Shown here piece by piece: positions 3,979-29,129 of a stretch of DNA of 64,000 bases. The DNA is from an uncultured Fidelibacterota bacterium. Lineage in GTDB: Bacteria > Fidelibacterota > Marinisomatia > Marinisomatales > TCS55. The stretch's first letter is position 1; each line of letters opens with the position of its first letter. The position numbers and the translations under genes were made by a program. Where the stretch lies: assembly GCA_902615915.1 (NCBI GenBank), contig CACMQQ010000004.1, positions 62,001 to 126,000 of the forward strand. Direction: 5' to 3'. Under the pieces are notes generated by a model that saw only the letters and a program-made list of their open reading frames with translations, was not told where the DNA came from and did not search any database.

Positions 3979-3984
3979 GGAATC
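3163..3984 (+). repeat. 822-bp near-identical C-terminal module, copy 1
   Basis: This stretch matches 16743-17564 with two visible differences: G/A at 3487 versus 17067 (Asp versus Asn) and the last base of the stop codon at 3978 versus 17558 (TAA versus TAG). Identity begins abruptly at 'ACCGCCTGG' inside the dockerin-like domain and stops just after the stop codon ('GGAATC'). It encodes the end of the dockerin-like region and the whole sorting domain. Its start is strikingly GC-rich (37 of 60 bases in 3181-3240) compared with the sequence just before it (17 of 60 in 3061-3120). Confidence 0.95.
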
Positions 3985-4142
3985 CCCCTTTTTACATAAT
4001 CAAATTAATGCGTACTTTTGCAGTAGTTTGAACCACTATTGTTTTTGATAATATTAAGTTGTGTAGTGACGGTAATCACTGCAAATTTTATTACTTTTAT
4101 TTAACTTTTTGTGATTTTTTGATCAAAATAGGAATTATAAAT
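3979..4142 (+). promoter_or_regulatory. Leader and probable promoter region of the giant gene
   Basis: A 164-base AT-rich gap between the two large surface-protein genes. A TTGAAC at 4028-4033 followed by GATAAT/TAATAT around 4047-4054 resembles promoter elements, although the spacing is shorter than the usual 17 bases. GGA at 4131-4133, nine bases before ATG 4143, is a plausible ribosome binding site and supports that start. No clear terminator follows the upstream stop codon, so read-through from the first gene is also possible. Confidence 0.3.
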
Positions 4143-16100: not shown

Positions 16101-17558
16101 GATGGGTTTGGTCCAGACCTAGATTTTCTCAAAGACACCACAAGCGCTACAGCAAGCTGGAGCGGATTTTATGATCTCAATAGAATAGATTACTACGAGC
16201 TAGCACTCGGATCATCTGAAGGGAAGACCGATATTGTTGATTGGACAGATGTTGGAACCAGCTCATCTTACTCATTCAATGGGCTTTCATTAAAACCAGG
16301 AAGTAGTTATTATTTCAGTATAAGAGCTTTTGACCGATTAGGAAATCCATCAGAAACAATATCAACCGATGGATTTTTGATTGATATGGTTGGGCCAAAT
16401 ATATTAGGCGTATCGGTACCAACAGACAAGATTTTAGCTATCTATGAGCCTATTTCAATAGATGTTTTCTTGTCAGAGATCGCAAAATCTGCTGAAGTCG
16501 AATTCAGAACTGAAAGGGCGAATATCTTCAATTTAGAACCAGATTATAAAGTGAACGGAGATACGGTAAATGTAACCTTTAAGCCGCCATTTACCAGTGG
16601 TGACAGAATCACATTCACTATTAGCGTAACCGATGTTGCTGGTAACGAGACAAAAGATCTATCCTACACTTACACCATAGCTCTGCTTTCTGATTTTGAT
16701 GAAGATGGTGAAATAGGGCTTGGAGATATTTACGGACTAATAACCGCCTGGAACGAAAAGGATTACTCCAAGGAGCTCGCACCGGTGACCGGTAGTGCGC
16801 CTTACTTCACCCCTGCCCCAGATGGTGTCTTTGATGTACGCGATGGTATGGCCTTTGTACGAATGTGGCAGTGGAGTAATAATAGCTCCAATAGAATGCT
16901 AGCTCGCCGTAGTAGCTTCAACAGTGGTGCTTCCTTAGATGTGGATGTAGAAAACGATCATCTTTTGATCACGCCACCTAAAAGCGTGCGTGCGGTCGAA
17001 CTTATCGCTAACTACGCTCCTTACGATATCGCTCTTGCGATGTCGGATGAGAATGTGGTCTCTAGTAATGCCATCAGCCTCGTTAGCAGCGACACCCTAT
17101 CTGGAAGCTTACTGATCCACACTGCTCGCTACGATCAAACAGCAGATCCGATCCGTATCGATGTTAAGCATCTACAAAAGGAGATGGACGTTCCAGTGAC
17201 GCTATCCTACCGCTATCTAGGAGTGAATGGTGAGGAGATCGCAGCAGGATCAGAGACGATAGAGATCGTACCGGTACCGACCGATTTTGCACTGCACAAC
17301 AACTACCCCAATCCGTTCAATCCAGCCACATCGATCGATTTTGATCTACCGGAGGATGGCAATGTGGTGCTGATGATCTACGATGTGATGGGACGAGAGG
17401 TCGCTACCTTGCAAAACAGTGAGATGAAAGCTGGTTATCATAGCGTACGCTGGGATGCCCGTAATCAAATGGGAAGAAAAGTAGCGGCTGGGGTCTACTT
17501 CTATCAGATCAAGACCGCTCGTTATCTTAAGACGCGCAAGATGGTGCTTTTGAAGTAG
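4143..17558 (+). CDS. Giant (4471-residue) secreted repeat protein with SWM/Ig-like repeats, propeller-like blocks and T9SS-type sorting domain
   Basis: The frame is open from TTG 4059, but ATG 4143 has a spaced GGA and is followed by a signal peptide ('ILLSLLMISVPLLGQ'), so I use 4143. Order of parts: propeller-like block A (to about nt 5335, motif 'AY-G---DG-I-T'); SWM repeats 1-2 (5340-6510, with a foreign-looking module inserted in repeat 2); block B (6525-7600); SWM 3-4 (7620-8285); block C (8300-9470); SWM 5-6 (9480-10150); block D (10155-11245); SWM 7-14 in tandem (11247-13975); Fn3 (13980-14260); beta-helix (14265-14930); choice-of-anchor-Q-like segment (14935-15130); four Fn3-like modules (15135-16400); an Ig-like domain; a dockerin-like domain ('DFDEDGEIGLGD'); and the sorting domain. 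SWM repeats carry 'VTFNEAVF' and 'IYDA-GN' signatures. I infer an adhesin or surface-fibre role; no catalytic motif is visible. It is followed 17 bases later by a MORN-repeat lipoprotein. Confidence 0.85.
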   Translation: MNRNDLLKSGIKRMTQILLSLLMISVPLLGQSKPTFIKQFEYDDENGQWGNPMVVNDSILIVAYSGYKGFGNVQTLKIAADGSTISKVALLRFDDDDAYEISMEKVANDMFVVAYRGRSQDGFITTIKVSGDGQTLTQVKKLEHDTADGRNNAIRKVDSDTYALSYIGTNGSGALKHRIKTFTIPADGSNITEVAVLDLNTSYIVGNSADIIEAAANMFVVASSSNNTITLKTISISNDGATITEKTSKNISSSGKQFSLAKMTSNLYILEFYGNHKGPTSNNSSNGGVVASIDIPADGSSITPLTYLRHTSSSGFDQNTVIKIDNNTFAAAYKTSKGILRTFNMSNDGRTLTNVGYVNFFNSATKFNNIIQWKNNVYLITYAGTGDKGYINTYKIESDKPYINSYVLAADNSTVKVTFNEAVYNATGGSGALEASDFTIAMSGGKASLTSATPSAISASGNEYTLNIPYDFADDYPNGEEKITIDVASNAIYDANDNVVPAQTIYDAISTSSDPTTIVQRNIKTLSDKELPYVTSVTTELDEDNTPIQVTFNEAVFNTNSGSGALEASDFTLRIVEKTEETVVSFTDASATTGWTNAWQSFTTVKKGSLNKISLRLQNTSSVDGYRMALYLYNNDSNSSSANPNDKFSSPISRSQLTIVPKNSNGEVHFIFPQGIPLGASAKYYFWLKNEGVNPSGAGKVYVNSSHNDGGAGNSASRLFHKVTMFTGEGSGTLVSATPSSISKSSNTYTLGVNWDLVPNGKEKLVVQPASGAIFDAKGNIATTAQAKNRAIVNDHRIISVSDLQYYSSSNYWTNNLALGDDLVLTQRRDYLYLNQIAKDGKTKTQKSTYRHQPSEHNRDTDLLRVSRNLFITSASAYDYGVSQTHGNIIKSITLSKNNQMMVVDTYKPDNINNSSFGGGPSLLQLNDSVFVSAYQGNGYDGYIHTFKMDEMGYFTKLQMLEHYNGNVGKNILQKIDANTVLLLYHRGTSAGQGYLTTFDISADGKTITKVKEVSLSSYVRFPSMVKRADSAFVAAYTGPSNDGFISTITTTADGKTITVKKTVEHDTDNGQYNSLLGPYDEKFGLAYTGPGNDGFIKIFEIPNDDTITEVINVEHDRNQSTYNSGFMHDWDTYGITHQDRYGRGNMSFLDINSKLPLNPGISRVSVNTANSELSVTFNEAVYNATGGSGALEASDFALSLEGGTAKLASATPTSISSSGNTYTLAFGITGTPDGRERLTVRPAAANAIYDANDNPVKVTSADLYATYLYDKKIPTITSINNVYNEYLEVNFSEPVYGGTNGNETVVTSDFVLSSTGGTATVNATPTSVVGFGGYGKNTALGSKYKIYFSFSGTPDGNEKLTLSVKANSIYDVNLNPVATSQPKGKADLFKSKLLSVGSMEYNTSEGRDASVVHVENDVYAMAYSGPSKDGHIQTFKMSKDGKTIQKIKDIEHNTNYADMHGMIRHNENIFLVVFRDGSSDGWLKTFAISADGSTITEVAKLEYNTAYGYWPSIKRVDHDTYLLAYAYGGSQGYLQTFDISADGKTITKIKSYRHDSNWMGYNTLLQLSPNYFALSNRGVRNHSNGDWKYGNWIKTYKVSDDGATITPITSLNHAPSSNSNYGYYNHFAKLDSDSYALMTHSYDSQETGNQWKGILKTFTIAQDGSSIKQESVQKFFNEEINGSDGDQTYLLLVNSDNLMIKSRDRNQDGWIKNYKISNNGSTLTEDWKFEFETNRYRNLHRQDDELFLVDNNTLGITYSDASYDGQIRAIDMILTDAQKPIIASTKLSYDNAVLMVDFNEPTFKDANGSGFLEKTDFELTLTGGAATLASKTPSKIVRDGNMYLLTVSYNGIADGNEVLKVAPVADAIFDGGGNKAEATQSNNTVTLNEKTLPKIASTSLSGDNKTLTVTFSEAIFDQASGSGAIEKGDFVLSVTGGAATLTNATPIAISSLGSNAYALTVGYQGMANGTEVIKVTPAANAIFDKAGNIASTTQTNNQLSLNEVKIQQIASAEHNTSNGTWNSLIRVDDDTYALAYAASSSYGNVKTFAISKDGLTITTAQNKQYQSSSSLYNDFTQIDNNTFAVVYTGPSNDGFIRTMDISSSGAISLKSVLEFDTGQATWNSIAKVKGSVYAVAYSGPNSDGYIRTLNIAENSGSTTITNLAFKEHHTEDADHHDLVNLNDSTLVLAYRGVKSGSRFLALKTFHISTDGKTITEKKKLELAFEGWWPSIAAVDNNTFIMAYQKAGGTGEIATFDYTADGSSITQVKSLKFEDNNTRHHSLVNSGSNTFTLASNTNNTNNYMRMFTVPTDGKTITLTYATTFDNNQNNNTGTYYSLVKVDSDTYALAHTGHQNDGYIKTFEVIAGDKVLPVISYVKLNDNNAAIDVTFNENVFSSAGASGNLDANDFVLTITGGSAKLASATPTSITNTSKTYTLGFTLNGSPDGNETLTVSPANNAIYDAGGNIANTTQSNNTSKLNDKSGPKITKTLLAANNASIIVTLNEASFNTSSGSGKLEKEDFVLSLSGGAAKLASATPTSISDSATVYTLGFSITGSPNGSELLKVVPANNAIYDSKGNVSSAVQLNNSVNLKDIVPPVIDSVRVSSDNDIALIYFNEKVASKNDGTGALDSADFVFSISGGTAKLAKSYPVSVSASDNVISLGVFLNGTPDGSETITISPKDSSIYDLRGNLANASQKNNTVKLFDKILPFITKSSLLPSNDSISITFNESIFAKSDASGSIDTSDFAFTLSGGAATLQKNYPSGIRKDGNTYHLALNLKGVPDGKEKLIINPNANSVFDASGNKASTSQNNNNQTLNDKAPPEISNISLASDNSALTITFNEAIFSNSDGKGDIEKSDFVMALAGGRATLASPFPTSLSKSGNTYNLGIGLNGEPNGSEELTLLIVDRAVFDAGGNSAVSNQTKSKVTLNDKNAPIITKLLLSENNETVEVTFNEKIFGTIDGNTAIDSSVFNLSISGGTAKLTQADPKKLTAKDSVTYTITLPLSGIPDGSETVTIALEKESVYDASGSEAATTQAVNKITLNDLSAPLIVSTKLNSDNSKITVLFNVSVYGTTKNTGDLETDDFELTIAGGSATLKNSTPTTISSSNSAKQYELTFELSGEADGTEKLTVKPVSNGIFDSAANAASKTQTNNTVNLFDKRAPLISSTSLNTSNDTLTVVFNEAVSSGDASNPTIKNEGFVLSITGGLATLTSPYPKEIIVSGNTYKLLPSITGTPDGNELLTVTASNGSIFDASGNDASLKKQSNNSVYLFDQKAPKAPTGLYTITGNERITLSWKTSDEKDIDKYYIFQGTSPTSTSKIDSVGYGINSLHISSLTNGTRYYFKVSALDKTGYESTKSDTTSGIPSTTMSYTVKSDGTGDFTSAQDAIEKAVNGDTVFIATGVYDSIRVDSKTINIIAGDGPANSIIDAKGKTTAVKLLGFPNQTTISGFTIKGGIGDNNANELGGGIRVEAGVDAKIENCIVTDNKDGALYFADSSSTTISNVLVYGNDQTFNIGSGSVTFLNCTFSDQEKDATATTGSKMNFINTIFMDHVSTEDSVMNAELFADHSLFTFGDNTFNSNHYGAFNYGTNNLVDDPLFADTLNNDYHLNRKSPAIGFGTLSLVVGGATYKAPEKDLDLNARPGPSGSAPDLGAFESPYSSSLPRANNISDGLSDTLELDFTNSSTTLSARWKSFGSGITYDYAIGTGNLKNNIVDWTANSTDTSAIVTLSGAGQLQNSTTYFFSVRGSNDQGSVTITTDGVFVDLEEPMISSVTEFKTDLDWFGPTIDGHIFANASDNGGITKYEFSIGSSAGLDDILPWTVSDSNSFLADVSSLSEDVTYYSNARVTDVVGNIVTQSSDGFKMDVTNPILGNISIGNEYQSDTSKVTYVWSDFDDLHSGIADYQYSLGTESGLTDVIPRTSFGLNADFASVSITIGGLSLQNEQTYYGTIYAVDKVGNETLAFSEGVTIDRNGPEVGQIVDGFGPDLDFLKDTTSATASWSGFYDLNRIDYYELALGSSEGKTDIVDWTDVGTSSSYSFNGLSLKPGSSYYFSIRAFDRLGNPSETISTDGFLIDMVGPNILGVSVPTDKILAIYEPISIDVFLSEIAKSAEVEFRTERANIFNLEPDYKVNGDTVNVTFKPPFTSGDRITFTISVTDVAGNETKDLSYTYTIALLSDFDEDGEIGLGDIYGLITAWNEKDYSKELAPVTGSAPYFTPAPDGVFDVRDGMAFVRMWQWSNNSSNRMLARRSSFNSGASLDVDVENDHLLITPPKSVRAVELIANYAPYDIALAMSDENVVSSNAISLVSSDTLSGSLLIHTARYDQTADPIRIDVKHLQKEMDVPVTLSYRYLGVNGEEIAAGSETIEIVPVPTDFALHNNYPNPFNPATSIDFDLPEDGNVVLMIYDVMGREVATLQNSEMKAGYHSVRWDARNQMGRKVAAGVYFYQIKTARYLKTRKMVLLK
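5880..6345 (+). other. Inserted ~150-residue module shared with the minus-strand envelope protein at 24293-27691
   Basis: Inside SWM repeat 2 of the giant protein the Ig-like pattern is interrupted after 'DFTLRIVEKTEE' by a module containing 'TTGWTNAWQSF', 'SSANPNDKF', 'YYFWLKNEGVNP' and 'NSSHNDGG'. The same landmarks ('VTGWTNGWQKF', 'SSANPNSKF', 'YYFWIKEEGVNP', 'NSSENDGG') occur in the same order at about 26851-26375 on the minus strand. After the module the SWM repeat resumes ('LVSATPSSISKSSNTY'). Aromatic-rich strands and Asn/Asp/Gly loops would suit a carbohydrate- or calcium-binding beta-sandwich, but that is inference. Confidence 0.8.
11247..13975 (+). repeat. Eight tandem SWM-type Ig-like repeats (about 113 residues each)
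   Basis: Repeat starts lie near 11247, 11590, 11933, 12268, 12606, 12948, 13290 and 13640. Each opens with a 'P-I-S--L--DN' strand, has 'V-FNE--F', a D/N-F strand, 'GG-A-LA---PT-IS', then '-G-PDG-E-L-V-P' and 'IFDA-GN', and ends 'TQ-NN-V-LND'. Most copies have diverged, but repeats 7 and 8 share exact DNA blocks (for example 'GCGAAATTAGCTAGCGCCAC' at about 11394 and 11733, and 'AATAACGCTATCTACGAT'). That suggests recent duplication or conversion. The family name (SwmA/SwmB-like, cyanobacterial long-protein repeats) is assigned from motif memory. Confidence 0.8.
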
Positions 17559-17574: not shown

Positions 17575-20361
17575 ATGAAAAAGAACCTGCTTTTATATTC
17601 CATTGTTTGGATTGTTCTACTGATCGGCTGTGGCCCTGAACTTCAAACTGTTATTAATCGAGACGCTCATAACCGAGTAATTTTAGAAGCCGAGGTAAAA
17701 GGGGAAGTTGACACCCTATGGAGTAAGGTTTACACTTATCACTTCGCTGGTGACCCTGCTTTGGCTGTCAATACAGATCCAGAACCACAAGAAACCCCTG
17801 AGGAAGAAACCCCTGAGGAAGAAACCCCTGAGGAAGAAACCCCTGAGGAACCAAAGGTTTATATCGTCACTGCGGATACCACAAAAAAGTCCTTTTCTAG
17901 CTATGCAAAAGGGAGAGCAGAGGGCGAGTGGAAAACCTGGTGGCCGAACGGCATTATTAAATCAGAGTTCACCTATGTTAAAAATGAGATCGAGGGCGTT
18001 TATTCCTATTTTGACAGTTTGGGCACCAAGATCAAGACTGAGACCTATAAAAAGAGCATATTGAATGGTGTATTATCTGAGTACAATGAAAATGGAACTC
18101 TTAGGAGTACGATAGATTATGTTAAAGGCAAGAAAACGGGTCTAGTAAAAGAATTCTTAGAGGGCATTGTCCTATTAGAGCAAAAAACCTTAAAGAAAGA
18201 TAGCCTTGATGGAGAATGGACCTCATGGCATGATAATGGCACCAAAAAAGTGGTTCGAGTCTACAAGAATGGTACTCCCGTTGGTAATTGGGTTTTTAAT
18301 GATGAAAAAGGTGAGTGGATGCGTGAAGAGCAATATAAAGGTGGACTAGCGCATGGAATTTGGTCATTCTACGATGAAGCCAGGGATAAAGTCTTTCAAT
18401 ACTACACCAAAGGCAAATTGATGGCTGAGTATACTGAAGCAAAATGGCCCAACGGGCAAATAAAAGAAGTGCCTTCATTCAAAAATGGTTTACCACATGG
18501 AACATGGACAGGTTATTGGCCTGATGGTTCCACTCGATACAAACTAGATTACAAAGAAGGTGAAAAAGACGGTGATGAGATGCGGTATGATTCTTTGGGC
18601 GTTCTGATCTATGAAGTAAGATATGCCAAAGGCATTCGAGATGGAGTTGAAAAGGAATTCTACTCCAATGGTAATCCTAAAAAAGAGGTCAGATATGCCA
18701 AAGGCATTCGAGATGGAGTTGAAAAGGAATTCTACTCCAATGGTAATCCTAAAAGAACTGCTAGATACAGCAACAATTTATTAGATGGCAAAACTGAGCT
18801 TTTTGATTCGCTCGGTGTCATAACTGAGACCATAACCTTTAAGGATAGTTTAAGAAACGGCAAAACAACCATTTGGTGGCCCAATGGAAAAGCATATCAA
18901 AGACTTACCTATCTGAATAATGTTTTAGAAGGGGAATACGAAGAATGGGATAGCTTAGGCAAGGATATTGTAAAAGGCGATTATGTCAATGGAACGCGTG
19001 ATAAGAAATGGCTTTATTATGATAGCGAAGGCAGAAGAGATAAATTCATATTTTTAGATATGGATTCAGTTATTACGGATTACAAATTTCGATATTACCC
19101 AAACTGGCAAATTGTTGAAGAACCAAGCTTTAACGATGAAGGATTGTACGATGGTAAATGGGAGTCTTTTTATTTAGACGGAACTAAAAAAAAGGATTAC
19201 GAATACGATATGGGCAAAAAAGACAAGATCTGGATGTCCTATTATCAAGACAAACGTCGCCAGAATTTCACCTTTTATAATCAAGATTCATTGGTCACTG
19301 ACTACGATTTTAAATATTATGATAACTTGCAGATAGCAGAAGAGCCAGAGTTTAATAAAGAGGGTCTTTTTGATGGAAAATGGGAAGCCTTCTATGAGGA
19401 TGGTGAAACGAAAAAGACCTTTGGTTATGATGCAGGCAAAAAAGACAAGATCTGGATGTCCTATTATCAAGACAAACGTCGCCAGAATTTCACCTTTTAT
19501 AATCAAGATTCATTGGTCACTGACTACGATTTTAAATATTATGATAACATAAGCTCAATTGAAGATTCTAATTATTATAACTATGATTTTTATATGAATC
19601 TTAAAGTTGACAATGCCCCAACTTTTGAGAATATGCAAATTGTAGAAGAGCCAAGTTTTGATAAAAATGGTTCATATGATGGTAAATGGGAAGCATTCTT
19701 TGAGGATGGTGAAATTTGGAGAACGTTCCATTATACAGAGGGAAAAAAAGATAAACTATGGACAGTGCTGTATGATTCAACGGGGGTCAAACAGTCCGAA
19801 ACAAACTTCGCAGATGATTTAAGAGAAGGTATGTATTTTGAGTGGTATGAGAGCATTAAAGTAAGACAAAAAGAAGAAGGTTTATGGGTTCAAGATAAAA
19901 AGCATGAGATCTGGACGTATTGGAACGAATTTCAAGAAAAGACTCTAGAAGTGTGGGATATGGGAAACCTGCTTCACACATATAAATATGAATATTATGA
20001 AAATGGCCAAGTCAAAGAAGAGCCTTCCTATAAGGACGGTAAAATGCATGGAGATTGGGTGCGATATTTTCCAAATGGCGACATCAAGGGAACTCGTGTC
20101 TTTAGGGAAGGTCTTAAAGAAGGCCTATGGGTTGAGTATCACAGGAACCCGCCAGGAGAACGAGATGATATTTTTGCCTGGAAGGGTAAATACGTGGAAG
20201 ATAAAAAAGAAGGTAGATGGGAATGGTACTGGCTTAATACCAATTTACAACGCGTTGAAGTTTTCAAGAATGATCAAATTCTTTCTCAAGATTGTTATGA
20301 AAGAGACGGAAGTGGGAGAAAGAGGGAGTGTATGGAAGTTAGAGGGCCAAGTAGCTATTAA
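17575..20361 (+). CDS. MORN/YwqK-repeat lipoprotein (928 residues)
   Basis: The N-terminus 'MKKNLLLYSIVWIVLLIGC' is a lipoprotein signal with the lipidated Cys near residue 19. An acidic linker of four ETPEE units (residues 73-92) follows, then about 800 residues of MORN_2/YwqK-type units of the form 'G-W--(W/Y)--NG--K---Y--G---G'. Family members called 'YwqK antitoxins' consist of such units, but the name says little about function here. I infer a periplasm- or surface-facing, membrane-anchored repeat scaffold. The gene begins 17 bases after the giant gene and shares its strand, so the two may be co-expressed. ATG 17575 opens the lipoprotein signal; an out-of-frame ATG lies at 17570. Two segments are exact internal DNA duplications. 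The 3' end overlaps the convergent symporter gene by four bases. Confidence 0.8.
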   Translation: MKKNLLLYSIVWIVLLIGCGPELQTVINRDAHNRVILEAEVKGEVDTLWSKVYTYHFAGDPALAVNTDPEPQETPEEETPEEETPEEETPEEPKVYIVTADTTKKSFSSYAKGRAEGEWKTWWPNGIIKSEFTYVKNEIEGVYSYFDSLGTKIKTETYKKSILNGVLSEYNENGTLRSTIDYVKGKKTGLVKEFLEGIVLLEQKTLKKDSLDGEWTSWHDNGTKKVVRVYKNGTPVGNWVFNDEKGEWMREEQYKGGLAHGIWSFYDEARDKVFQYYTKGKLMAEYTEAKWPNGQIKEVPSFKNGLPHGTWTGYWPDGSTRYKLDYKEGEKDGDEMRYDSLGVLIYEVRYAKGIRDGVEKEFYSNGNPKKEVRYAKGIRDGVEKEFYSNGNPKRTARYSNNLLDGKTELFDSLGVITETITFKDSLRNGKTTIWWPNGKAYQRLTYLNNVLEGEYEEWDSLGKDIVKGDYVNGTRDKKWLYYDSEGRRDKFIFLDMDSVITDYKFRYYPNWQIVEEPSFNDEGLYDGKWESFYLDGTKKKDYEYDMGKKDKIWMSYYQDKRRQNFTFYNQDSLVTDYDFKYYDNLQIAEEPEFNKEGLFDGKWEAFYEDGETKKTFGYDAGKKDKIWMSYYQDKRRQNFTFYNQDSLVTDYDFKYYDNISSIEDSNYYNYDFYMNLKVDNAPTFENMQIVEEPSFDKNGSYDGKWEAFFEDGEIWRTFHYTEGKKDKLWTVLYDSTGVKQSETNFADDLREGMYFEWYESIKVRQKEEGLWVQDKKHEIWTYWNEFQEKTLEVWDMGNLLHTYKYEYYENGQVKEEPSYKDGKMHGDWVRYFPNGDIKGTRVFREGLKEGLWVEYHRNPPGERDDIFAWKGKYVEDKKEGRWEWYWLNTNLQRVEVFKNDQILSQDCYERDGSGRKRECMEVRGPSSY
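17791..17850 (+). repeat. Four perfect 15-bp tandem repeats encoding an ETPEE linker
   Basis: The unit GAAACCCCTGAGGAA is repeated four times without mismatch and keeps the frame. Perfect short tandem copies are prone to slippage, so linker length between the lipid anchor and the MORN repeats may vary among strains. A fifth, degenerate unit ('EEPK') follows. Confidence 0.95.
18619..18754 (+). repeat. 72-bp tandem duplication inside the MORN-repeat gene
   Basis: Bases 18619-18682 recur exactly at 18691-18754 (period 72 bp, 24 residues, beginning 'RYAKGIRDGVEKEF'). This is one MORN_2 unit copied in frame, so the array appears to grow by unit duplication. Confidence 0.9.
19213..19548 (+). repeat. 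Exact 114-bp duplicated segment (19213-19326 and 19435-19548)
   Basis: The two copies lie 222 bp apart and are identical as far as I can read. They encode 'GKKDKIWMSYYQDKRRQNF' and the following strand up to 'KYYDN'. The intervening unit is a diverged MORN block, so the exact match indicates a recent two-unit duplication or local gene conversion rather than functional constraint. Confidence 0.9.
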
Positions 20362-21827: not shown

Positions 21828-22919
21828 ATGAAAAAGCTTGATATATATTTACTGCAAAAATTTATAGTCACACTCTTGATGACTCTTCTAGGCTTTATTT
21901 GCGTCATTCTCATAGTAGACTTGATTGAAAATCTTGATCGATTTATTGACAATGCAATTCCCTTTAATATAACCATGAAATATTATCTATATGCCATACC
22001 ATGGTTTATTAATATTGGCTTGCCAATGTCAATGCTTATTGCAACCGTATTCAGTATTGGCTTACTAGCAAAAAAAAATGAGCTGACAGCAATGAAATCA
22101 ACTGGAATTAGTGTATACCGAATCGCAATTCCTATTTTTACAACTAGTGTATTGACAAGTCTTATTTCATTTGAACTTGATAATAAATGGGTTAGCAAAG
22201 GGAATCAATTGCGGTATGATATTGAAAGAGAATACATGAAACGTAAATCAAGAGTTAAGGTCAAGAAAAATATGCGAGATATTTTTCTTCAGAAAAATGA
22301 AAAATCCCATTTATCAATTGATAGATACAGGACCGATACTAAAATTGGTAGAAATATAACAATGATCGCGCTTGAGGATGGAATTGTAAACAAAAGGCTA
22401 GATTCGAGAGGTATTAAGTGGCTCGACACATTAAATGTTTGGAACGTTACTAATTATTCAATTAGAGAATTTGATGAATTAGGGGCTGTAAAAGAAACTA
22501 TCATATCAAACTCAGATACCATTATGGATATTGGGTTCACACCTGACGATATCACTCAACAAACCAAAAGGCCGGATGAATTGAGTTACTCAGAACTAAC
22601 GGAGAGAATAAATCAATTAAAGAATAACGGGGTTGATACAATCAAATGGGAGGTCGATCGATCTTTTAAAATATCGTTTGCTTTTACAAATCTTATTGTT
22701 GTTCTTTTCGGTCTGCCGCTTGTTCTTATCAAGTCAAAAAACGGGCTCTCATTTGGCGCAGGGATGGGAATTCTGGTAATCTTTATTTATTATGTTTTTA
22801 TAAAGTTTGGTATGTCAATGGGGTATAGCGGAATTATGACTCCGAACGTAGCAGCATGGATGGGAAATGTTATATTTTCGATTGGTGGTATTTTATTGCT
22901 TTTGGTTATTAGGAAGTGA
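21828..22919 (+). CDS. LptF/LptG-family (YjgP/YjgQ) lipopolysaccharide export permease
   Basis: A 363-residue inner-membrane protein of the type that pairs with LptB to extract LPS and pass it to the periplasmic Lpt bridge. Visible are an N-terminal amphipathic 'MKKLDIYLLQKFI' followed by TM1, TM2-TM3 around 'INIGLPMSMLIATVFSIG', the family-typical 'KKNELTAMKSTGIS' cytoplasmic motif (residues 83-96), a large periplasmic middle domain (about 130-280), and three C-terminal TM segments including 'GLPLVLIKSKNGLSFGAG'. Only one such gene lies in the window; the partner and lptB must be elsewhere. I cannot decide between LptF and LptG. The 3' end overlaps the convergent barrel gene by 27 bases. Confidence 0.88.
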   Translation: MKKLDIYLLQKFIVTLLMTLLGFICVILIVDLIENLDRFIDNAIPFNITMKYYLYAIPWFINIGLPMSMLIATVFSIGLLAKKNELTAMKSTGISVYRIAIPIFTTSVLTSLISFELDNKWVSKGNQLRYDIEREYMKRKSRVKVKKNMRDIFLQKNEKSHLSIDRYRTDTKIGRNITMIALEDGIVNKRLDSRGIKWLDTLNVWNVTNYSIREFDELGAVKETIISNSDTIMDIGFTPDDITQQTKRPDELSYSELTERINQLKNNGVDTIKWEVDRSFKISFAFTNLIVVLFGLPLVLIKSKNGLSFGAGMGILVIFIYYVFIKFGMSMGYSGIMTPNVAAWMGNVIFSIGGILLLLVIRK

Positions 22920-24296
22920 GGTTTCCGGGACTGGGGATGGTCCCGAAGAAGCATCATCAGTTTTGTTATCTCTCCCCTTAAAGCTGGTCATTGTAAATCC
23001 CAATGAGAAATTCAATCCTTTCATAGTATGTATCCACATGCCACTTTTAAATGAAAACCCGACATCAATCATTACAGGGCCACCATGAAAACCTGCTCCC
23101 ATTCCAAACTCCGTTCTATCCATCCCTTCCCAAGAAAATCCTAATCTTAAGGGCAGGTTATCGAATCTATATAGCTCAGCTGCTATGGCCCATTTCCATC
23201 TGGCGCTAGAGAAAAATCTGTTTTCAAATCCAGTAGAAATATCTGAACTTATCAAAACCTCGTCCCCCCTATAAGACCCACCAATTCTAAAAATAGAAGG
23301 ATAAGTGATATTGAACTTTTTAACTTTGCCATTTTCATCCAAATTTTTTACAATTTGCGAAGAGCTAGTAAATAAGTTTCCAGACGAAAGATTATCAGCG
23401 CGTAACGAATCGATTTTGTAGGTGTATAATACCGCTACGCTATCAGAAAGTCTCTCACCTCCCCACTTCAGCGGGTATTCTTTCAACGCATCTTTTAATA
23501 ATGAGGGTTTGTTCCATCCTATGCTAGCTGATGCATTTATAATGGAGGCACCAAACCTCAGTCTATTAAATTCTTTTGTCGCCAAACCAATATCAATTCC
23601 GTAGCCACTCCCACCAAAACCTTGGCGAAGATAGTACGTCCCAGAACCATAAACTGCTTTGGGTGTAGTAATGAAATCAGCTTTACTGGAATCTGGATCA
23701 AGACCCATATAAAAGAGACCTTGTAAATATTTGACTGTTAAACCGACTGCATAAGATTCAAATGGAACCGCAAAGGAAAACCCAAATTCATTTACCCCTA
23801 TAACTTCAAGGCCAAAAGTCATATCAATGTTTGGGTTATTGGCATTGCCTTCCAAAATAAGCCTTACTAATCCTGAGGGTAAAGCATAGGTACTCAAATA
23901 ATTCATATTTGATGATAAGACCATATTTCCCAAAGAAAAATTAAGAAATGGTATAGCTAAATGACCATCAAGGTCAAATCGTAACCCCCCATTATTATCC
24001 AATCTATTTAGTATGAATGATTTCTCATCTTGCTCTAAGGTATCACCGTTTAACGCATTTAAGGTAGCTATAGATAAATAATTATTTTTCATACCAAAAT
24101 CCAAACCACCCAACTGCAACATAAACGGTTTTTCTTTTTGATAGGCAATTAGAGCGGGATTATAACCAACAGCATAAATACCATCAGCAATAGTTGTTGT
24201 TGCGCCAACTAACGCAACTGTTCTAGGGTCTCTTTTTTGTCCATAAAGAATTGAATTAAAAAAAATAATTAAAACTAATAATGATTTTGATCTCAT
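22893..24296 (-). CDS. FadL/PorV-like outer-membrane beta-barrel protein (DUF5723-like)
   Basis: I chose ATG 24296 because it overlaps the preceding gene's stop (ATGA, 24293-24296) and directly starts a signal peptide ('MRSKSLLVLIIFFNSILYG'); a longer frame to 24317 would bury the signal. The mature start has 'YAVGYNPALIA', the short 'NPA' motif common in FadL, PorV and PorQ-type barrels, followed by many alternating aromatic strands ending at about residue 440. The C-terminus is Ser/Pro-rich ('SSGPSPVPETS'). Translation is probably coupled to the upstream 1132-residue protein, suggesting a joint envelope function. A PorV-like shuttle role for sorting-domain proteins is possible but unproven; a plain porin or transport barrel fits equally well. 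Confidence 0.65.
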   Translation of the reverse strand: MRSKSLLVLIIFFNSILYGQKRDPRTVALVGATTTIADGIYAVGYNPALIAYQKEKPFMLQLGGLDFGMKNNYLSIATLNALNGDTLEQDEKSFILNRLDNNGGLRFDLDGHLAIPFLNFSLGNMVLSSNMNYLSTYALPSGLVRLILEGNANNPNIDMTFGLEVIGVNEFGFSFAVPFESYAVGLTVKYLQGLFYMGLDPDSSKADFITTPKAVYGSGTYYLRQGFGGSGYGIDIGLATKEFNRLRFGASIINASASIGWNKPSLLKDALKEYPLKWGGERLSDSVAVLYTYKIDSLRADNLSSGNLFTSSSQIVKNLDENGKVKKFNITYPSIFRIGGSYRGDEVLISSDISTGFENRFFSSARWKWAIAAELYRFDNLPLRLGFSWEGMDRTEFGMGAGFHGGPVMIDVGFSFKSGMWIHTMKGLNFSLGFTMTSFKGRDNKTDDASSGPSPVPETSLPNNQKQ

Positions 24297-27200
24297 TTTT
24301 TCAATAACCCATTCCAAATATTATCAATAGCAATATCTTCAATAGACTGTGAACCGCCACTGCCGCTAGTTAATGAAAAATACCAACCTGACATATCTCT
24401 AACTTTACCATCGGAAGATTTTATCCTGATGCGAATACTGTCTTTCAGGCTACTAGACAATGAACTAATACCATCTGTGCTTGTGGGGGTCCAATTATAG
24501 AAATTTTCATTGGTTAAATCTGTAATAATATTGACCCAGCCAACATCTGAATTCACATTTGGGTTACCTCCAGCATAATAGGCAAGATCTACTTTTGAAA
24601 CAGTGCCATATGTTTTCCAAGTAATTTTTATAGTCGAGCTCTCATTTAAACTTTGGCCTCCATTTGGAAACTTAACAACCAGCTCATTTGGAGGGGGGTC
24701 TGACATACCTGTGCTACTTATGCTAAAGGTTACAAAAGAATCAATATTTAGATAGTCACCTGTTGTCATATAAACTGATCTACCGTTTGAACCCTCCAAC
24801 CTGAACCTGGGAGCCATATAAGGTTGGCCTGGATCTGTCATTAATCTAACTCTCTCTTTTGGCAAAGGACTAGCATAAGTAGTAAGCCCTGCTTCCCGGA
24901 CTTGGCCTGCATGAACACCAGAATTTGTGACATTGTAAAAACTTTTTGGCTCAGGAAGAGGGATCTTTAAAAGAGTGTCTACATAGGAAAAAGCGGTATC
25001 CATTGAACTGCTTGTTGTTTTAATGATATATGACATGCCATTGATACAATCTGCAAAGTCATCCATAACATTAAATATATAAATATCGCTAAACTCTGGA
25101 TTTAAACTATCACAAGTTGATACTAAATATACACTATCAGTATTGGACCAATTTAATTTAACCACCATAGAATCCTTAAATGCGCGCAAAGCTACTACTG
25201 TTGTATCTAACGGAAAATACCCTGTATTTGACATTAGCATAGAAAGATCTCCTCCTGAGGGAATTTTATTTTCAACAGTAAATGTCATACTCGCAGACTG
25301 TAATGAAGAACGTATCCTGTTTCTATTGGAATGATCCATTTCTTGTAAAGGAGAATTGGTTGCTGATATAAATGTCATAGGAGCCATGATTATCTCAAAT
25401 GGGGCTAACATTCTATATTTTCCTCCTATGGTCATTCCCGATTCAAGCGTACCTCTACCGTCAATTCTTGCTCTAGAATTCACATTGAAGGTTGAAGGAT
25501 TTGATGACATTAACTCAACAATGGTTGTCTCATTCGTTTTAGGTGTTACGTTGGTGCTATCATAATAATTCAACGATCCTGGCGCTTGGTATTTTAAGGT
25601 TGTTGTTCCAATTGAGGATAATCTTACAATCGTTTTTGTGGTATCTTTAGCGGTTGATGGACTTGCAAGAGTGGATATGGCATTCACTTTTGAAGTATCA
25701 CCTGCTTGATTTATACCCACCATATCAAAATCAAGAACTACAGGCAATCTTATTCCATTATACATTTCAATTTCTAATTTAGTATCCACAAATTCCCAAC
25801 CAGAAAAACCGAGCGGCATCCCTGAAATAGCAAAGGAGGTTGGTGGAAATTCTTGAACTATATTTGCTTCCATGGATTCAAAGTGAAGTCCTTTTAGACC
25901 TATATCAAAAGATATCCCCCCAAAGTTTGATCCATCTAACGGAAATGAACTGTTCTGTGCTTTGATTGTAGCAGAAGCTTCTAAGGTAAGCTTTTTTAAA
26001 ACAGAGTCAGCTCCTTGAGGGTTATAAAACGTATATCCATCTAAGTCATAATTCTTTTTAATAGTCAAACCATTTTTTAATACTGTATCCAATTTTGTGG
26101 AATCTTTTCCTGCAGGCGGTGCAAAATTCTTAAAATTCATCAAAAAATTCACATCCATAGGATAACCGCTAGTAATACTATTTATCTTTATTTCATTGAT
26201 ATCAGCGGCGCTTGGAGATATTAATTTGCCAGAAAATATTTCAATGGAAGCTGGAAATTTAACTTCGGGTATACCGATAGGAATATTTGTCTCTGCAATG
26301 CTAACCAAAGCTGAATCAAAACCTGAAATTTTTAATTGATTTGATATGCCAATCTGCATCTTATCACCCGCACTGATTGTAATAAGGTCCCCTGTCAAAG
26401 TATTTATTTTATGATAAACTCGTCCAAAGCTATTATCCGAACCTCCATCGTTTTCAGAACTGTTTATATACAATTTTTGGCCCCCTGTGCCTGCTGGATT
26501 TACCCCTTCTTCTTTTATCCAAAAATAATAGTTGGTACTGGCATTATAAGTTTTGCCACTTGAAAAGGGAAATTCTACTTCTCCAGCTGCTGTATTTCTA
26601 TTAATTGTGACAGTATTCGATTTATCGTAAGGTGCGCTTATAAACTTAGAATTTGGGTTAGCGCTTGAGGGATCATTATCAGCTGTGTAGATATAAAGCG
26701 CCAAATTATAATCTGCTGCTGGTGCAGCATTACTTAATTTCAATATGATTTTGCTTAAAGCTCCGGTTTTTGACAAAGAGAATTTTTGCCAACCATTAGT
26801 CCATCCTGTCACTGAAGTCGCGCTAGTGTAACTAAACAAAGTTTCCTCTGAAGATCCAGCAGTCAAAGATTCAAGACCTAATGACAAATCCATAGTCATT
26901 GAATTGCCTATCGAAGCTTTACTTATAGAGCTTGCAGATGGTGAAAAGGTTTGCCCCTTTCCTATGCTCGCTTGAGTTTGATTTGCAAGTGTAATTGAGG
27001 CACTGTTAATACTTGTTTTTAAAGTTGAGGCAAAATTGGTTATTGATGATGGCAGGCCATCGTTCTCGATAGATGTTGTAAAATTACTAACTGCTCCACC
27101 AGCATCCTCTTTAACAACATATCCATTTATTGATTCAATGAATTCAAATTGATCCAGAGAGATGGATGGGATATTAATAGGTATCTGTATGCTCGGATTA

Positions 27201-27691
27201 AATGCAGATGCAATTGAATTCCAAGTAGCTTGAGTAATTTGCTGATCTGTGGTGGGTGGAATACTAAATGTAGCCCCAGAGCTATTTATGAGCGTCTTTG
27301 AGGGGATTATATCAATGGTTGTATCAAATGGTACGGTAATGCTTTGAGTGCTTGTAGGGGATGCGGTCGGATTTAAAGAAAAAGGAATTGAGGTGTCTAG
27401 GGTTATTTCCAAGATATCCGATCCAATGGAGGTGTCAGGCAAAATACCTTCAAACATCAACTGCATACCAAGAGAATCTGGAGTTGAAAAGATTTGCTTA
27501 TTGTCCATCATTCCCTCGAGAGAGAATTTATTTTGAACCAAAGGGAAAGTTATATCTACAAACCATGTTGGCACCTTAAATCCATTTAAAGTGCTTAAAT
27601 CACATTTAATGAGAGAAAACGGCATCAAAAGAAATAAAAACCATATTGACCATTTCTTATAAGTTGCGCTTTTGATTATAAACTTCTTCAT
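24293..27691 (-). CDS. Large envelope protein (1132 aa), probably a lipoprotein, with shared module and Ser/Thr-rich Ig-like C-terminus
   Basis: ATG 27691 is preferred over TTG 27694. The N-terminus has a hydrophobic signal ending 'MPFSLIKC'; the Lys before Cys is atypical for a lipobox, so lipidation is only probable. Most of the protein is beta-rich with no recognised fold. Residues roughly 280-440 (nt 26851-26375) form the module shared with the giant surface protein. The C-terminal ~110 residues ('VVKFPNGGQSLNESSTIKI' to 'WYFSLTSG') resemble the Kre9/KNH-like Ser/Thr-rich Ig domain. The next gene, coupled by ATGA, encodes an outer-membrane barrel. No catalytic motif is visible. Function unknown; a surface or periplasmic partner of the barrel is the natural guess. 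Confidence 0.7.
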   Translation of the reverse strand: MKKFIIKSATYKKWSIWFLFLLMPFSLIKCDLSTLNGFKVPTWFVDITFPLVQNKFSLEGMMDNKQIFSTPDSLGMQLMFEGILPDTSIGSDILEITLDTSIPFSLNPTASPTSTQSITVPFDTTIDIIPSKTLINSSGATFSIPPTTDQQITQATWNSIASAFNPSIQIPINIPSISLDQFEFIESINGYVVKEDAGGAVSNFTTSIENDGLPSSITNFASTLKTSINSASITLANQTQASIGKGQTFSPSASSISKASIGNSMTMDLSLGLESLTAGSSEETLFSYTSATSVTGWTNGWQKFSLSKTGALSKIILKLSNAAPAADYNLALYIYTADNDPSSANPNSKFISAPYDKSNTVTINRNTAAGEVEFPFSSGKTYNASTNYYFWIKEEGVNPAGTGGQKLYINSSENDGGSDNSFGRVYHKINTLTGDLITISAGDKMQIGISNQLKISGFDSALVSIAETNIPIGIPEVKFPASIEIFSGKLISPSAADINEIKINSITSGYPMDVNFLMNFKNFAPPAGKDSTKLDTVLKNGLTIKKNYDLDGYTFYNPQGADSVLKKLTLEASATIKAQNSSFPLDGSNFGGISFDIGLKGLHFESMEANIVQEFPPTSFAISGMPLGFSGWEFVDTKLEIEMYNGIRLPVVLDFDMVGINQAGDTSKVNAISTLASPSTAKDTTKTIVRLSSIGTTTLKYQAPGSLNYYDSTNVTPKTNETTIVELMSSNPSTFNVNSRARIDGRGTLESGMTIGGKYRMLAPFEIIMAPMTFISATNSPLQEMDHSNRNRIRSSLQSASMTFTVENKIPSGGDLSMLMSNTGYFPLDTTVVALRAFKDSMVVKLNWSNTDSVYLVSTCDSLNPEFSDIYIFNVMDDFADCINGMSYIIKTTSSSMDTAFSYVDTLLKIPLPEPKSFYNVTNSGVHAGQVREAGLTTYASPLPKERVRLMTDPGQPYMAPRFRLEGSNGRSVYMTTGDYLNIDSFVTFSISSTGMSDPPPNELVVKFPNGGQSLNESSTIKITWKTYGTVSKVDLAYYAGGNPNVNSDVGWVNIITDLTNENFYNWTPTSTDGISSLSSSLKDSIRIRIKSSDGKVRDMSGWYFSLTSGSGGSQSIEDIAIDNIWNGLLKK
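26375..26851 (-). other. Second copy of the ~150-residue shared module
   Basis: This segment encodes the 'VTGWTNGWQKF' to 'FGRVYHKINTLTGD' stretch. It aligns along its full length, with few gaps, to the insert at 5880-6345 in the giant protein. It is embedded between beta-rich regions lacking SWM repeats, so the module moves independently of its host domain. Confidence 0.8.
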
Positions 27692-27758: not shown

Positions 27759-27790
27759 AAAAAAAAAGCCTCACTTGGAGGCTTTTTTTG
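27759..27790 (-). terminator. Bidirectional intrinsic terminator after ahcY
   Basis: The stem GCCTC (27768-27772) pairs with GAGGC (27778-27782) around a five-base loop, flanked by a run of A on one side and T on the other; the stem extends through A-T pairs. In the minus direction it lies about 17 bases after the ahcY stop codon and ends the pckA-metK-ahcY run. The rest of the 27692-27806 gap is AT-rich leader for the envelope-protein gene. Confidence 0.85.
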
Positions 27791-27806: not shown

Positions 27807-29129
27807 CTAATATCTGTATTCTTCAGATTTAAAGGGTCCCTCTACCTTTACTCCAATATAGTCAGCTTGTTCTTGATTCAACTGGGTCAGCTCAACACCT
27901 AGTTTTTCCAAATGTAAAATAGCTACCTTTTCATCTAAATGCTTTGGAAGAACATATACTTTATTTTCGTATTTATCACTGTTTTCCCACAATTCGATTT
28001 GCGCAAGAACCTGATTTGTAAAAGAATTGCTCATCACAAAAGAAGGGTGGCCTGTTGCGCAGCCAAGGTTAACCAATCTACCTTCAGCCAATACTATGAT
28101 ATCTTTTCCATTTAAAGTGTATTTATCAACTTGAGGTTTTATGGTATCTTTTGAATTTCCATGATTTTTTTCTAACCAAGCCATGTCAATCTCATTGTCA
28201 AAGTGACCAATATTACAAACTATGGCTTTATCTTTCATATTTTCAAAATGTTCTGCTCTAACAATATCTCTATTGCCCGTTGCAGTTACTACAATATCCA
28301 CATCACTGATTACGGTTTTCAGTCTTTTAACTTGAAAACCGTCCATTGATGCTTGCAAAGCGCAGATTGGATCGATTTCTGAAATAATAACTCTAGCGCC
28401 AGCACCCCTTAAAGATGCAGCGGAACCCTTCCCTACATCGCCATAACCTGCAACGACGGCAACTTTTCCTGCCATCATGATATCGGTAGATCTTCTGATA
28501 GCATCGACCAACGATTCCTGGCAGCCATATTTATTGTCAAATTTTGCTTTAGTTACTGAGTCATTTATGTTGATAGCAGGCAATGGTAAGGTACCATTTT
28601 TAACCCTTTCATGAAGCCTATGGACTCCAGTAGTAGTCTCCTCAGAAAGACCTTTAATCCCAGAAACAAGCTCGGGATAATGATCTAATACCATATTGGT
28701 GAGATCGCCCCCATCATCTAAAATCATATTAAGCGGTTTATCATCGTTAAAGGCAAATAGTGTTTGCTTTATACACCAATCAAATTCTTCCTCATTCATT
28801 CCTTTCCAAGCATAAACAGGTATGTCTTTTGCTGCAATGGCAGCTGCAGCATGATCCTGCGTTGAAAATATATTGCAAGATGACCAAGAAACTTCTGCTC
28901 CAAGATCAATCAACGTTTCTATCAAAACAGCAGTTTGAATTGTCATGTGCAAACATCCTGCTATTCTAGCACCTTGTAGGGGTTTTGAAGCAGAGAATTC
29001 TCTTTTTATTGACATTAAACCAGGCATTTCAGCTTCTGCTAAGGAAATTTCTTTTCTTCCCCAATTTGAAAGAGAGATATCTTTTACTTTGTAAGGCAAT
29101 CTCTCAACAATATTTTCAGTTAATTCCAT
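27807..29129 (-). CDS. ahcY: Adenosylhomocysteinase
   Basis: Cytosolic NAD-dependent enzyme that splits S-adenosylhomocysteine into adenosine and homocysteine, relieving methyltransferase product inhibition. The family start '[19 protein letters not shown]' (residues 20-38), '[16 protein letters not shown]', '[13 protein letters not shown]' (substrate Lys/Asp region) and the NAD-binding glycine motif '[10 protein letters not shown]' (about residues 221-230) are all present, and the protein ends in the expected 'YRY'. At 440 residues it lacks the ~40-residue insert of some bacterial forms. A strong AAGGAG precedes ATG 29129. It follows metK after 13 bases, so the pair makes and recycles SAM in one transcript; a terminator follows. 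Confidence 0.97.

Follow-up and report, generated by a model that had tools for sequence, protein, structure and literature searches.

An overlapping lipoprotein–barrel gene pair of Marinimicrobia and its possible place in the outer membrane

A conserved gene pair

The stretch of DNA analysed here ('the window', 64 000 nucleotides) encodes, on its minus strand, a large lipoprotein of 1132 amino acids (aa) that we call ENV (24293–27691; ATG at 27691, stop codon TGA at 24295–24293) and a predicted outer-membrane barrel of the FadL fold and the DUF5723 family, BAR (22893–24296; 467 aa; ATG at 24296, stop codon at 22895–22893). A preliminary description of this DNA had the stop of the one overlapping the start of the other, and so it is: the sequence reads ATGA at 24296–24293, minus strand. 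When start/stop junctions were read by eye in 33 genomes with both genes, ATGA was found in 21 and T(A/G)ATG in five; four others may overlap by way of a TTG or GTG start, two have the start at +7, and one is ambiguous. Because overlapping starts and stops recur across these genomes, the arrangement is more than chance.

A convergent gene of the LptF/LptG family (21828–22919, plus strand) overlaps BAR by 27 nt at its 3′ end, and ahcY (27807–29129, minus strand) lies upstream of ENV; both are conserved neighbors. Between ahcY and ENV is a hairpin resembling an intrinsic terminator (27761–27789, minus strand), which the program lists on the plus strand only, but whose stem and T run can also be read on the minus strand. 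Since it stands ahead of ENV, ENV and BAR may form a transcription unit of their own; terminator-like sites are not enriched in the window (three found, 4.1 expected from shuffles). In all 21 regions that we read—the window, and 20 picked because a profile matched one gene or the pair there—ENV and BAR are adjacent and on the same strand, mostly between metK–ahcY and the convergent lptG (metK in 20 regions, ahcY and lptG in 17 each). These neighbors are housekeeping genes in a long run of synteny, and we abandoned the neighborhood as a guide to function.

Marinimicrobia are largely uncultured, and literature searches that paired their name with outer membrane protein and lipoprotein, or with type IX secretion, returned nothing on topic. 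Homologues of ENV occur in 171 of 245 genomes of the phylum and homologues of BAR in 170. Both genes are found in 160 genomes, one alone in 21 and neither in 64 (phi 0.80), with the proviso that weak hits underlie part of the 160, and that the hits in one genome (G059) belong to the paralogous pair described below. A tree-distance ('mirror-tree') test supports co-evolution of ENV and BAR (partial r 0.48; 1 of 5000 permutations). The signal is not specific to the pair, however, since ENV correlates equally well with lptG (0.844, versus 0.841 with BAR).

The barrel, the lipoprotein and the inserted module

The barrel had been likened to FadL and PorV on account of an 'NPA' start, and the likeness holds. 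BAR scores 42.8 bits against Pfam DUF5723 (PF18990), above the gathering cut-off of 26.8, and the same family is matched by 28 of 28 members of the BAR family; a literature search for DUF5723 by name found no paper. The NPA motif occupies residues 46–48, and the N-terminal tail leading to it from the presumed signal peptide spans 24153–24239 on the minus strand, if the mature N-terminus is near residue 20, as we assume. By its AlphaFold model (pLDDT 70, pTM 0.71), the fold class of BAR is FadL-like. The highest fold scores are to the channels CymD, TbuX, FadL and TodX (Z 19.7–22.8); PorV, the comparison suggested at the outset, scores 19.8–19.9; and three chains from Bacteroidota BAM complexes, 9n2d_B (18.2), 9hjm_F (18.1) and 9hiv_F (17.1), fall below the FadL-type channels and PorV alike. 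We take these three chains to be BamG, the FadL-family subunit of BAM.

ENV matches no family in Pfam or NCBIfam; three of 26 homologues match Kre9_KNH, and the window ENV does not. That it is a lipoprotein, as had been thought probable, is borne out by a cysteine that closes the signal peptide in the manner of signal peptidase II substrates, and whose position is conserved in 26 of 26 aligned relatives (family A1). The residue before it (−1) is Lys in the window species, which is atypical, and Ser, Ala or Gly in most relatives. Next comes the anchor tail (residues 30–51; 27539–27604, minus strand), with Cys30, Trp43 and Pro50-Leu51. Counted from the lipid-bearing Cys, Trp is at +13 in 18 of 21 tails and Pro-Leu at +20 in 20 of 21, after re-reading by eye of three rows (L095, L109 and L113) for which the script had picked an earlier Cys or none.

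At the other end of ENV is an Ig-like domain (residues 999–1113; 24353–24697, minus strand; fold matches with Z 7–8.6), and the model of the whole protein suggests a jelly roll built from both chain ends. The best match of that model is 4h3w_B (Z 11.0, rmsd 8.4, 272 residues aligned); PNGase F also matches through its first domain (Z 9.6, 128 aligned). With a pTM of 0.40, we draw no function from these. No BamH chain was among the matches of this fold search, which does not mean that the folds differ. The core of the A1 profile lies at about residues 530–860. ENV is probably located at the cell surface.

Residues 280–436 of ENV (26384–26854, minus strand) form a module of ~150 residues that is also present in a 4499-aa 'giant' with a sorting domain (module at 5874–6332, plus strand; sorting domain at about 17304–17546). 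The two copies are identical at 76 of 155 positions (49%; E 3e-46). The preliminary description saw in this a connection between ENV and the giant; the sharing is real, but a functional link does not follow, for the module is an insertion carried by few homologues. By alignment it sits in a single loop, and in 21 of 26 aligned ENV homologues a turn of 2–5 residues takes its place. Two kinds of insert occur there among the homologues, this module and FG-GAP repeats, and both are of sorts usual in extracellular settings. We infer that the loop is a site where some species add extra surface-type domains. A common module, the case cautions, need not mean a common pathway.

The pair has a remote paralogous counterpart, also a lipoprotein and a barrel (profile comparisons: E 4e-45 for the barrel, 1e-18 for the lipoprotein). 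All 14 regions retrieved around hits to the barrel show the same gene order, and the paralogous lipoproteins keep the spacing of the anchor tail in seven of 12 scored tails. In family f13, all hits observed were of the paralogous type.

Secretion, uptake or assembly

A secretion or surface pair, perhaps a dedicated system for display or attachment of type IX secretion (T9SS) cargo, was the original proposal, with a search for sov (sprA) as a check and absence of the T9SS core as grounds for rejection. The genome does have a T9SS: pieces of SprA, 26 sorting-domain hits and, besides BAR, four PorV-family barrels above cut-off. The proposal thus survives in part, as a coupled FadL/PorV-like barrel and lipoprotein in a T9SS genome, but not in the T9SS-type role assigned to them. 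In that role, BAR would act as a shuttle or anchor in the way of PorV, and its surface partner ENV would attach or display a group of sorted proteins. Apart from the T9SS itself and the module common to ENV and one giant, it is favored by a remote resemblance of BAR to the PorV/PorQ family (NF033709), its sub-threshold kin in 28 of 28 members (best E 2e-10). Two PorV-family barrels of the same genome, moreover, overlap by ATGA with the gene upstream, whose product has an end resembling that of sorted proteins (L115 scores 20.9 bits with the sorting model and L117 18.8 bits with CHU_C, both below cut-off). Against it, BAR scores 28.7 bits where the curated cut-off for PorV/PorQ is 90, and four other barrels of the genome exceed it; no sorting-domain model is matched by any of 26 ENV members at E up to 1; the module is missing from most homologues; and of the 64 genomes that gave no hit to either gene, 57 have SprA. 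On these four grounds we set the T9SS role aside as the main reading and consider it unlikely. SprA is present in 226 of the 245 genomes (E 1e-20) and the sorting domain in 243 (E 1e-6); since T9SS is nearly universal in the phylum, the pair could hardly be observed in lineages that have no sorting-domain proteins.

BAR might instead be a channel of the FadL type that admits lipids or other hydrophobic compounds, with ENV as a surface receptor or lid that passes substrate to it. The highest fold scores point that way, as does the short N-terminal tail, which lacks the extension of BamG; patchy absence fits an uptake system more easily, and a gene of a lipid-export family is often next door (17 of 21 regions). 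That gene is weak evidence, however, in a long conserved run of unrelated housekeeping genes, and the 28 BAR members, which match two families at E up to 0.01, include none with a match to FadL/Toluene_X (PF03349). We regard the channel, too, as doubtful.

Quite improbable, in our estimation, is that the two proteins are genuine BamG and BamH, bound to BamA, which have diverged greatly in this phylum. The main text of one report has BamG and BamH in six of seven other FCB phyla, and does not name Marinimicrobia (PMC12611786). The fold match to BAM barrel chains, and a genome with no Toluene_X match above cut-off, are in keeping with this identity. The N-terminal extension of BamG, described as residues 23–37 in the Bacteroides thetaiotaomicron protein (PMC12578637), is not. 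BAR lacks this extension (about 10–12 residues beyond FadL), given a mature N-terminus near residue 20: a FadL-type barrel of the same genome has a tail longer by 12 residues, and residue 27 of BAR pairs in structural alignment with residue 45 of the B. thetaiotaomicron chain. Nor is there a match in sequence: profiles of ENV and BAR found no BamH or BamG chain among PDB sequences at E up to 10, although they may be too insensitive. Identification of BamG by sequence failed likewise, as PDB searches with profiles A1, A2 and A4 and with the single barrel returned no BAM chain (A2 gave five weak, unrelated hits). BamG and BamH would also be expected in the 57 SprA-bearing genomes where the pair went undetected, though strongly diverged copies could escape. 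Family f15 (24 genomes, 19 with SprA) and genera g63 and g64 (13 genomes, 12 with SprA) gave no hit to either gene, and the pair is therefore unlikely to be an essential part of BAM there. Finally, the genome has another FadL-type barrel, L120, whose family has some match in 60 of 61 relatives (long in 32; most others short and near the N-terminus). The profile of this family (A3) finds FadL-type channels (CymD, E 4e-6) among PDB sequences, and no BAM chain; L120, which we tried as the true BamG of the genome, is no more than a candidate for that part. In view of the missing extension, and of SprA-bearing lineages that gave no hit to the pair, we do not file ENV and BAR as BamH and BamG proper.

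A possible resident complex and its relatives

The reading that we tentatively prefer, at somewhat less than even chances, is that ENV and BAR form a resident outer-membrane complex like that of BamG and BamH, probably in envelope assembly rather than transport of T9SS cargo. Produced together from overlapping genes, BAR would sit in the outer membrane, and the short, lipid-bearing tail of ENV, fixed in length, would dock on it. The stack of beta-sandwiches in ENV would then form a canopy or scaffold on the outer face of the cell. By analogy with BamG–BamH, the pair may help outer-membrane proteins or surface lipoproteins to assemble; T9SS cargo would not be carried. More speculatively, and with the odds clearly against us, Marinimicrobia might own an assembly accessory in two paralogous forms, in which a surface lipoprotein and the DUF5723 barrel coupled to it do the work of BamG–BamH with parts that are neither. 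The ENV loop would be an open socket that receives unrelated surface modules species by species, among them the one found also in a T9SS giant.

Whatever its role, ENV represents a lipoprotein family that matches nothing in Pfam or NCBIfam, is widespread in a marine phylum and is tied to a DUF5723 barrel. Should the pair work like BamG–BamH, the FCB group has seen the extracellular part of outer-membrane assembly arise or diverge more than once. DUF5723 (PF18990), the family of BAR, has no assigned function and would in that case gain a testable role.

Among known systems, the PorV/PorQ barrels of T9SS share with BAR the FadL fold, the NPA motif, remote sequence similarity and, in two cases, ATGA coupling to the gene upstream; BAR falls far below the cut-off of that family, of which the genome has four other members, and its partner is a lipoprotein without a sorting domain. 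FadL and TodX, channels for hydrophobic compounds, give BAR its highest fold scores, but BAR has no Toluene_X match and is partnered by a large lipoprotein. In the BAM of Bacteroidota, BamG is described as a FadL-family barrel and BamH as a surface lipoprotein, and BamG2–BamH2 as a putative operon of B. thetaiotaomicron (PMC12611786, PMC12578637). Our pair resembles that unit in combining a FadL-fold barrel with a large lipoprotein of conserved, lipidated N-terminus, in having its genes paired, as in BamG2–BamH2, and in the existence of a second, paralogous pair. It differs in that BAR has no N-terminal extension, our profiles detect no sequence similarity, the pair is not universal, and ENV accepts inserts in a loop.

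The ENV–BAR pair and its distribution

ENV, the gene for a large lipoprotein of 1132 residues, lies on the minus strand at 27691–24293, and BAR, the gene for a 467-residue barrel, follows it on the same strand at 24296–22893. The TGA that ends ENV overlaps the ATG that begins BAR, as ATGA, just as the preliminary description had read it. At its 3' end BAR overlaps a convergent LptF/LptG-family gene by 27 nt. Between ENV and ahcY lies a terminator-like hairpin (27761–27789; 12-pair stem, 4 G-C), which the scan reported on the plus strand although the minus strand also has a T run; it is one of three such sites in the region against 4.1 expected in shuffled sequences, which is no excess. The source assembly is 1.8 Mb in 40 contigs, and 87% complete. 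BAR is 98% identical to a barrel of bacterium TMED144, and its best segments are 65% and 42% identical to barrels in two Candidatus Neomarinimicrobiota records; on these matches we assign the source to the phylum Marinimicrobia.

The coupling is common. Among the ENV–BAR junctions of 33 genomes, read by eye, an ATG start overlaps the stop in 26 (21 ATGA and 5 T(A/G)ATG); four more may overlap through a TTG or GTG start, two have the start at +7, and one is ambiguous. The genes are adjacent and on one strand in all 21 regions compared—that of the window and 20 from other genomes, picked for having a profile match—and their neighbors include metK (20/21), ahcY (17/21) and convergent lptG (17/21). 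L111 and L112, regions from families f26 and f28, have a barrel–lipoprotein–barrel triplet rather than a pair, and the positions of profile matches suggest the same in f29 (G206, G207).

Profile searches of 245 genomes of the phylum detected ENV in 171 (threshold 1e-3) and BAR in 170 (1e-10); absence here means below these thresholds, in genomes often incomplete, and some matches belong to remote paralogues, for instance in family f13 (G048, G059). Both genes were detected in 160 genomes, one in 21 and neither in 64, giving a phi of 0.80 that serves as a description and not as a test, given the relatedness of the genomes and the incompleteness of many. Small genomes of family f15 (24 genomes: G050, G060, G086–G107; 0.4–1.0 Mb) have no detected ENV or BAR, and nor do the 13 genomes of genera g63 and g64 (1.2–2.5 Mb). 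Tree distances of ENV and BAR correlate at 0.84 across the 21 regions; the partial correlation, with metK and lptG removed, is 0.48 over 17 taxa, a value reached by one permutation in 5000. ENV and lptG also correlate at 0.84, so the test is not specific for the pair. On contig 68 of genome G158, a BAR match agrees in both position on the contig and score with that of G044, and is probably contamination. This contig, and contig 9 of G164, where a SprA match of 2361.6 bits stands far above the next (685.2), look like contaminants.

A FadL-fold barrel and a lipoprotein with a fixed tail

The FadL fold of BAR, though not its family within that fold, is well supported by its predicted model (pLDDT 70, pTM 0.71; residues 12–44 of low confidence). 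The model matches CymD, TbuX, FadL and TodX (Z 19.7–22.8) and PorV (Z 19.8–19.9), in keeping with the FadL/PorV-like barrel named at the outset. At Z 17.1–18.2 it also matches the FadL-like chains, taken here to be BamG, in the BAM complexes of three Bacteroidota. All 28 BAR proteins match DUF5723, all 28 match the PorV/PorQ model below threshold, and 15 match TraF_2.

Beta structure makes up almost the whole ENV model (pLDDT 73.5, pTM 0.40). It shows a jelly roll, seemingly joined from both ends of the chain and matching 4h3w_B at Z 11.0 and PNGase F at Z 9.6, and an Ig-like domain at the C-terminus (Z 7–8.6). Distant homologues (L109–L112) are shorter, 728–781 aa. In an alignment of 26 ENV proteins, Cys30 and Asp31 are invariant, and Trp stands at +13 from the Cys in 23 by script and in all 26 once three rows are counted from the correct Cys. 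Across the 21 regions, Trp occurs at +13 in 18 and at +12 in one, Phe at +13 in two, and Pro at +20 in 20, within Pro-Leu or Pro-Ile; for these tail counts rows L095, L109 and L113 were re-read by eye.

A second pair repeats the arrangement. In all 14 regions fetched, a remote homologue of BAR (BAR2) lies directly downstream of a gene from a second lipoprotein family (ENV2); two of these ENV2 genes are incomplete. Profile comparison joins BAR to BAR2 (E 4e-45) and ENV to ENV2 over the core (E 1e-18). Of 12 ENV2 tails scored, seven have Trp exactly at +13 (by script) and another three, one of them checked again by eye, have it at +11; of the other two, L158 was misread by the script and L169 lacks the Trp. 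Two related lipoprotein-then-barrel pairs, most with tails of fixed length, argue that the lipid tail would meet the barrel. In five regions (L157, L160, L162, L164, L167) ENV2–BAR2 lies near trpS-, scpA-, scpB- and cmk-like genes, named by eye.

Type IX secretion and the shared module

The preliminary description linked the pair to a T9SS-type cargo and suggested a possible dedicated display or attachment system. T9SS components are present: in the window genome SprA is found in pieces on two contigs, along with 26 sorting-domain matches and four PorV/PorQ-family barrels above cut-off, one of which (L115) matches Flavobacterium johnsoniae PorV by sequence (E 1e-15). A T9SS role for the pair was not borne out. 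BAR scores 28.7 bits against the PorV/PorQ model, whose cut-off is 90; none of the 26 aligned ENV proteins searched has a sorting-domain match; and SprA occurs in 152 of the 160 genomes with both genes, but also in 57 of the 64 that lack a detected copy of either, including 19/24 of f15 and 12/13 of g63 and g64. Neither outcome named beforehand as refuting came up: T9SS genes are there, and pairs in lineages free of sorting-domain proteins were not found, though they hardly could be, since 243 of the 245 genomes have a sorting domain (1e-6), and 226 have SprA (1e-20). The g63 and g64 genomes have at least 21 sorting-domain matches each. Those of f15 have 0–3 each at 1e-6; where SprA is kept, this family has a T9SS with almost no recognized cargo.

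ENV also shares a module with a sorting-domain giant of 4499 aa: residues 280–436 are identical to the giant's stretch at 5874–6332 at 76 of 155 positions (49%, E 3e-46). The sharing is thus real, but no tie to the giant's pathway follows from it. At this site 21 of the 26 aligned ENV proteins have only 2–5 residues; four have the module (the window, L013, L014 and L015, the last three 92%, 51% and 33% identical to the window's); and L010 (G008; ENV gene 3877–7965) has an unrelated insert with FG-GAP repeats (77.7 bits), at least 245 residues long in the aligned stretch. The module is therefore an insertion, in an ENV loop that accepts different, unrelated domains. A search with ENV in 61 genomes found other module matches at two places, both in sister species G001. 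Of the copies at 5874–6332 and 26384–26854, the giant's appears by eye to be nested inside one repeat, and the module may be a mobile, loop-inserting domain. The two neighboring sorting-domain giants (139–3978 and 4059–17558) differ at one position in their last 270 residues, suggesting a recent event of duplication or gene conversion. Beyond them, at 17575–20361, a 928-residue protein resembling a lipoprotein carries many short repeats (LIC20035 adhesin model, 81.4 bits; cut-off 250).

Candidate functions and the BamG–BamH comparison

An accessory role in T9SS draws some encouragement from the window genome, where the genes of two PorV-family barrels on contig 6 (L115, L117) each overlap the gene before them as ATGA, and the products of those upstream genes have ends resembling that of a sorted protein, with sorting-model scores below cut-off; the layout of exported protein plus FadL-fold barrel thus occurs here with T9SS partners too. 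The module, a loop insertion, does not tie the pair to the giant's pathway. We regard this role as unlikely. Uptake of hydrophobic compounds we consider equally doubtful.

Envelope assembly by a resident complex of barrel and surface lipoprotein is our own, tentative choice. According to two 2025 papers, the BAM of Bacteroidota contains BamG, a barrel of the FadL family, together with the surface lipoprotein BamH. The conserved, lipidated N-terminus of BamH is gripped by BamG, and BamH makes a canopy above the folding site; BamG2 and BamH2 form a putative operon (PMC12611786, PMC12578637). BamG's hallmark is a conserved N-terminal extension of about 10–12 residues (23–37 in B. theta; PMC12578637). 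BAR lacks it: its tail, which runs from near residue 20 up to the NPA motif (46–48), is short, with a 12-column gap against another FadL-type barrel family of the phylum (L120), and its residue 27 aligns with residue 45 in the BAM-complex chain of B. theta. By that test BAR is not BamG. Three things count against the proposal: the missing extension, the want of a sequence match to BamG or BamH chains at E up to 10 in profile searches that may be too insensitive, and the lineages where no pair was detected (f15, g63, g64). PMC12578637 reports no BamG matches in Bacteroidota that are endosymbionts, so loss from the small genomes of f15 is less telling, but g63 and g64 are not small. What ENV–BAR does have in common with BamG–BamH is its plan, a FadL-fold barrel with a lipoprotein, and it is from this plan that we propose an envelope-assembly role: ENV and BAR would form a resident outer-membrane complex, with ENV borne on the surface, and that complex would serve the assembly of the envelope.
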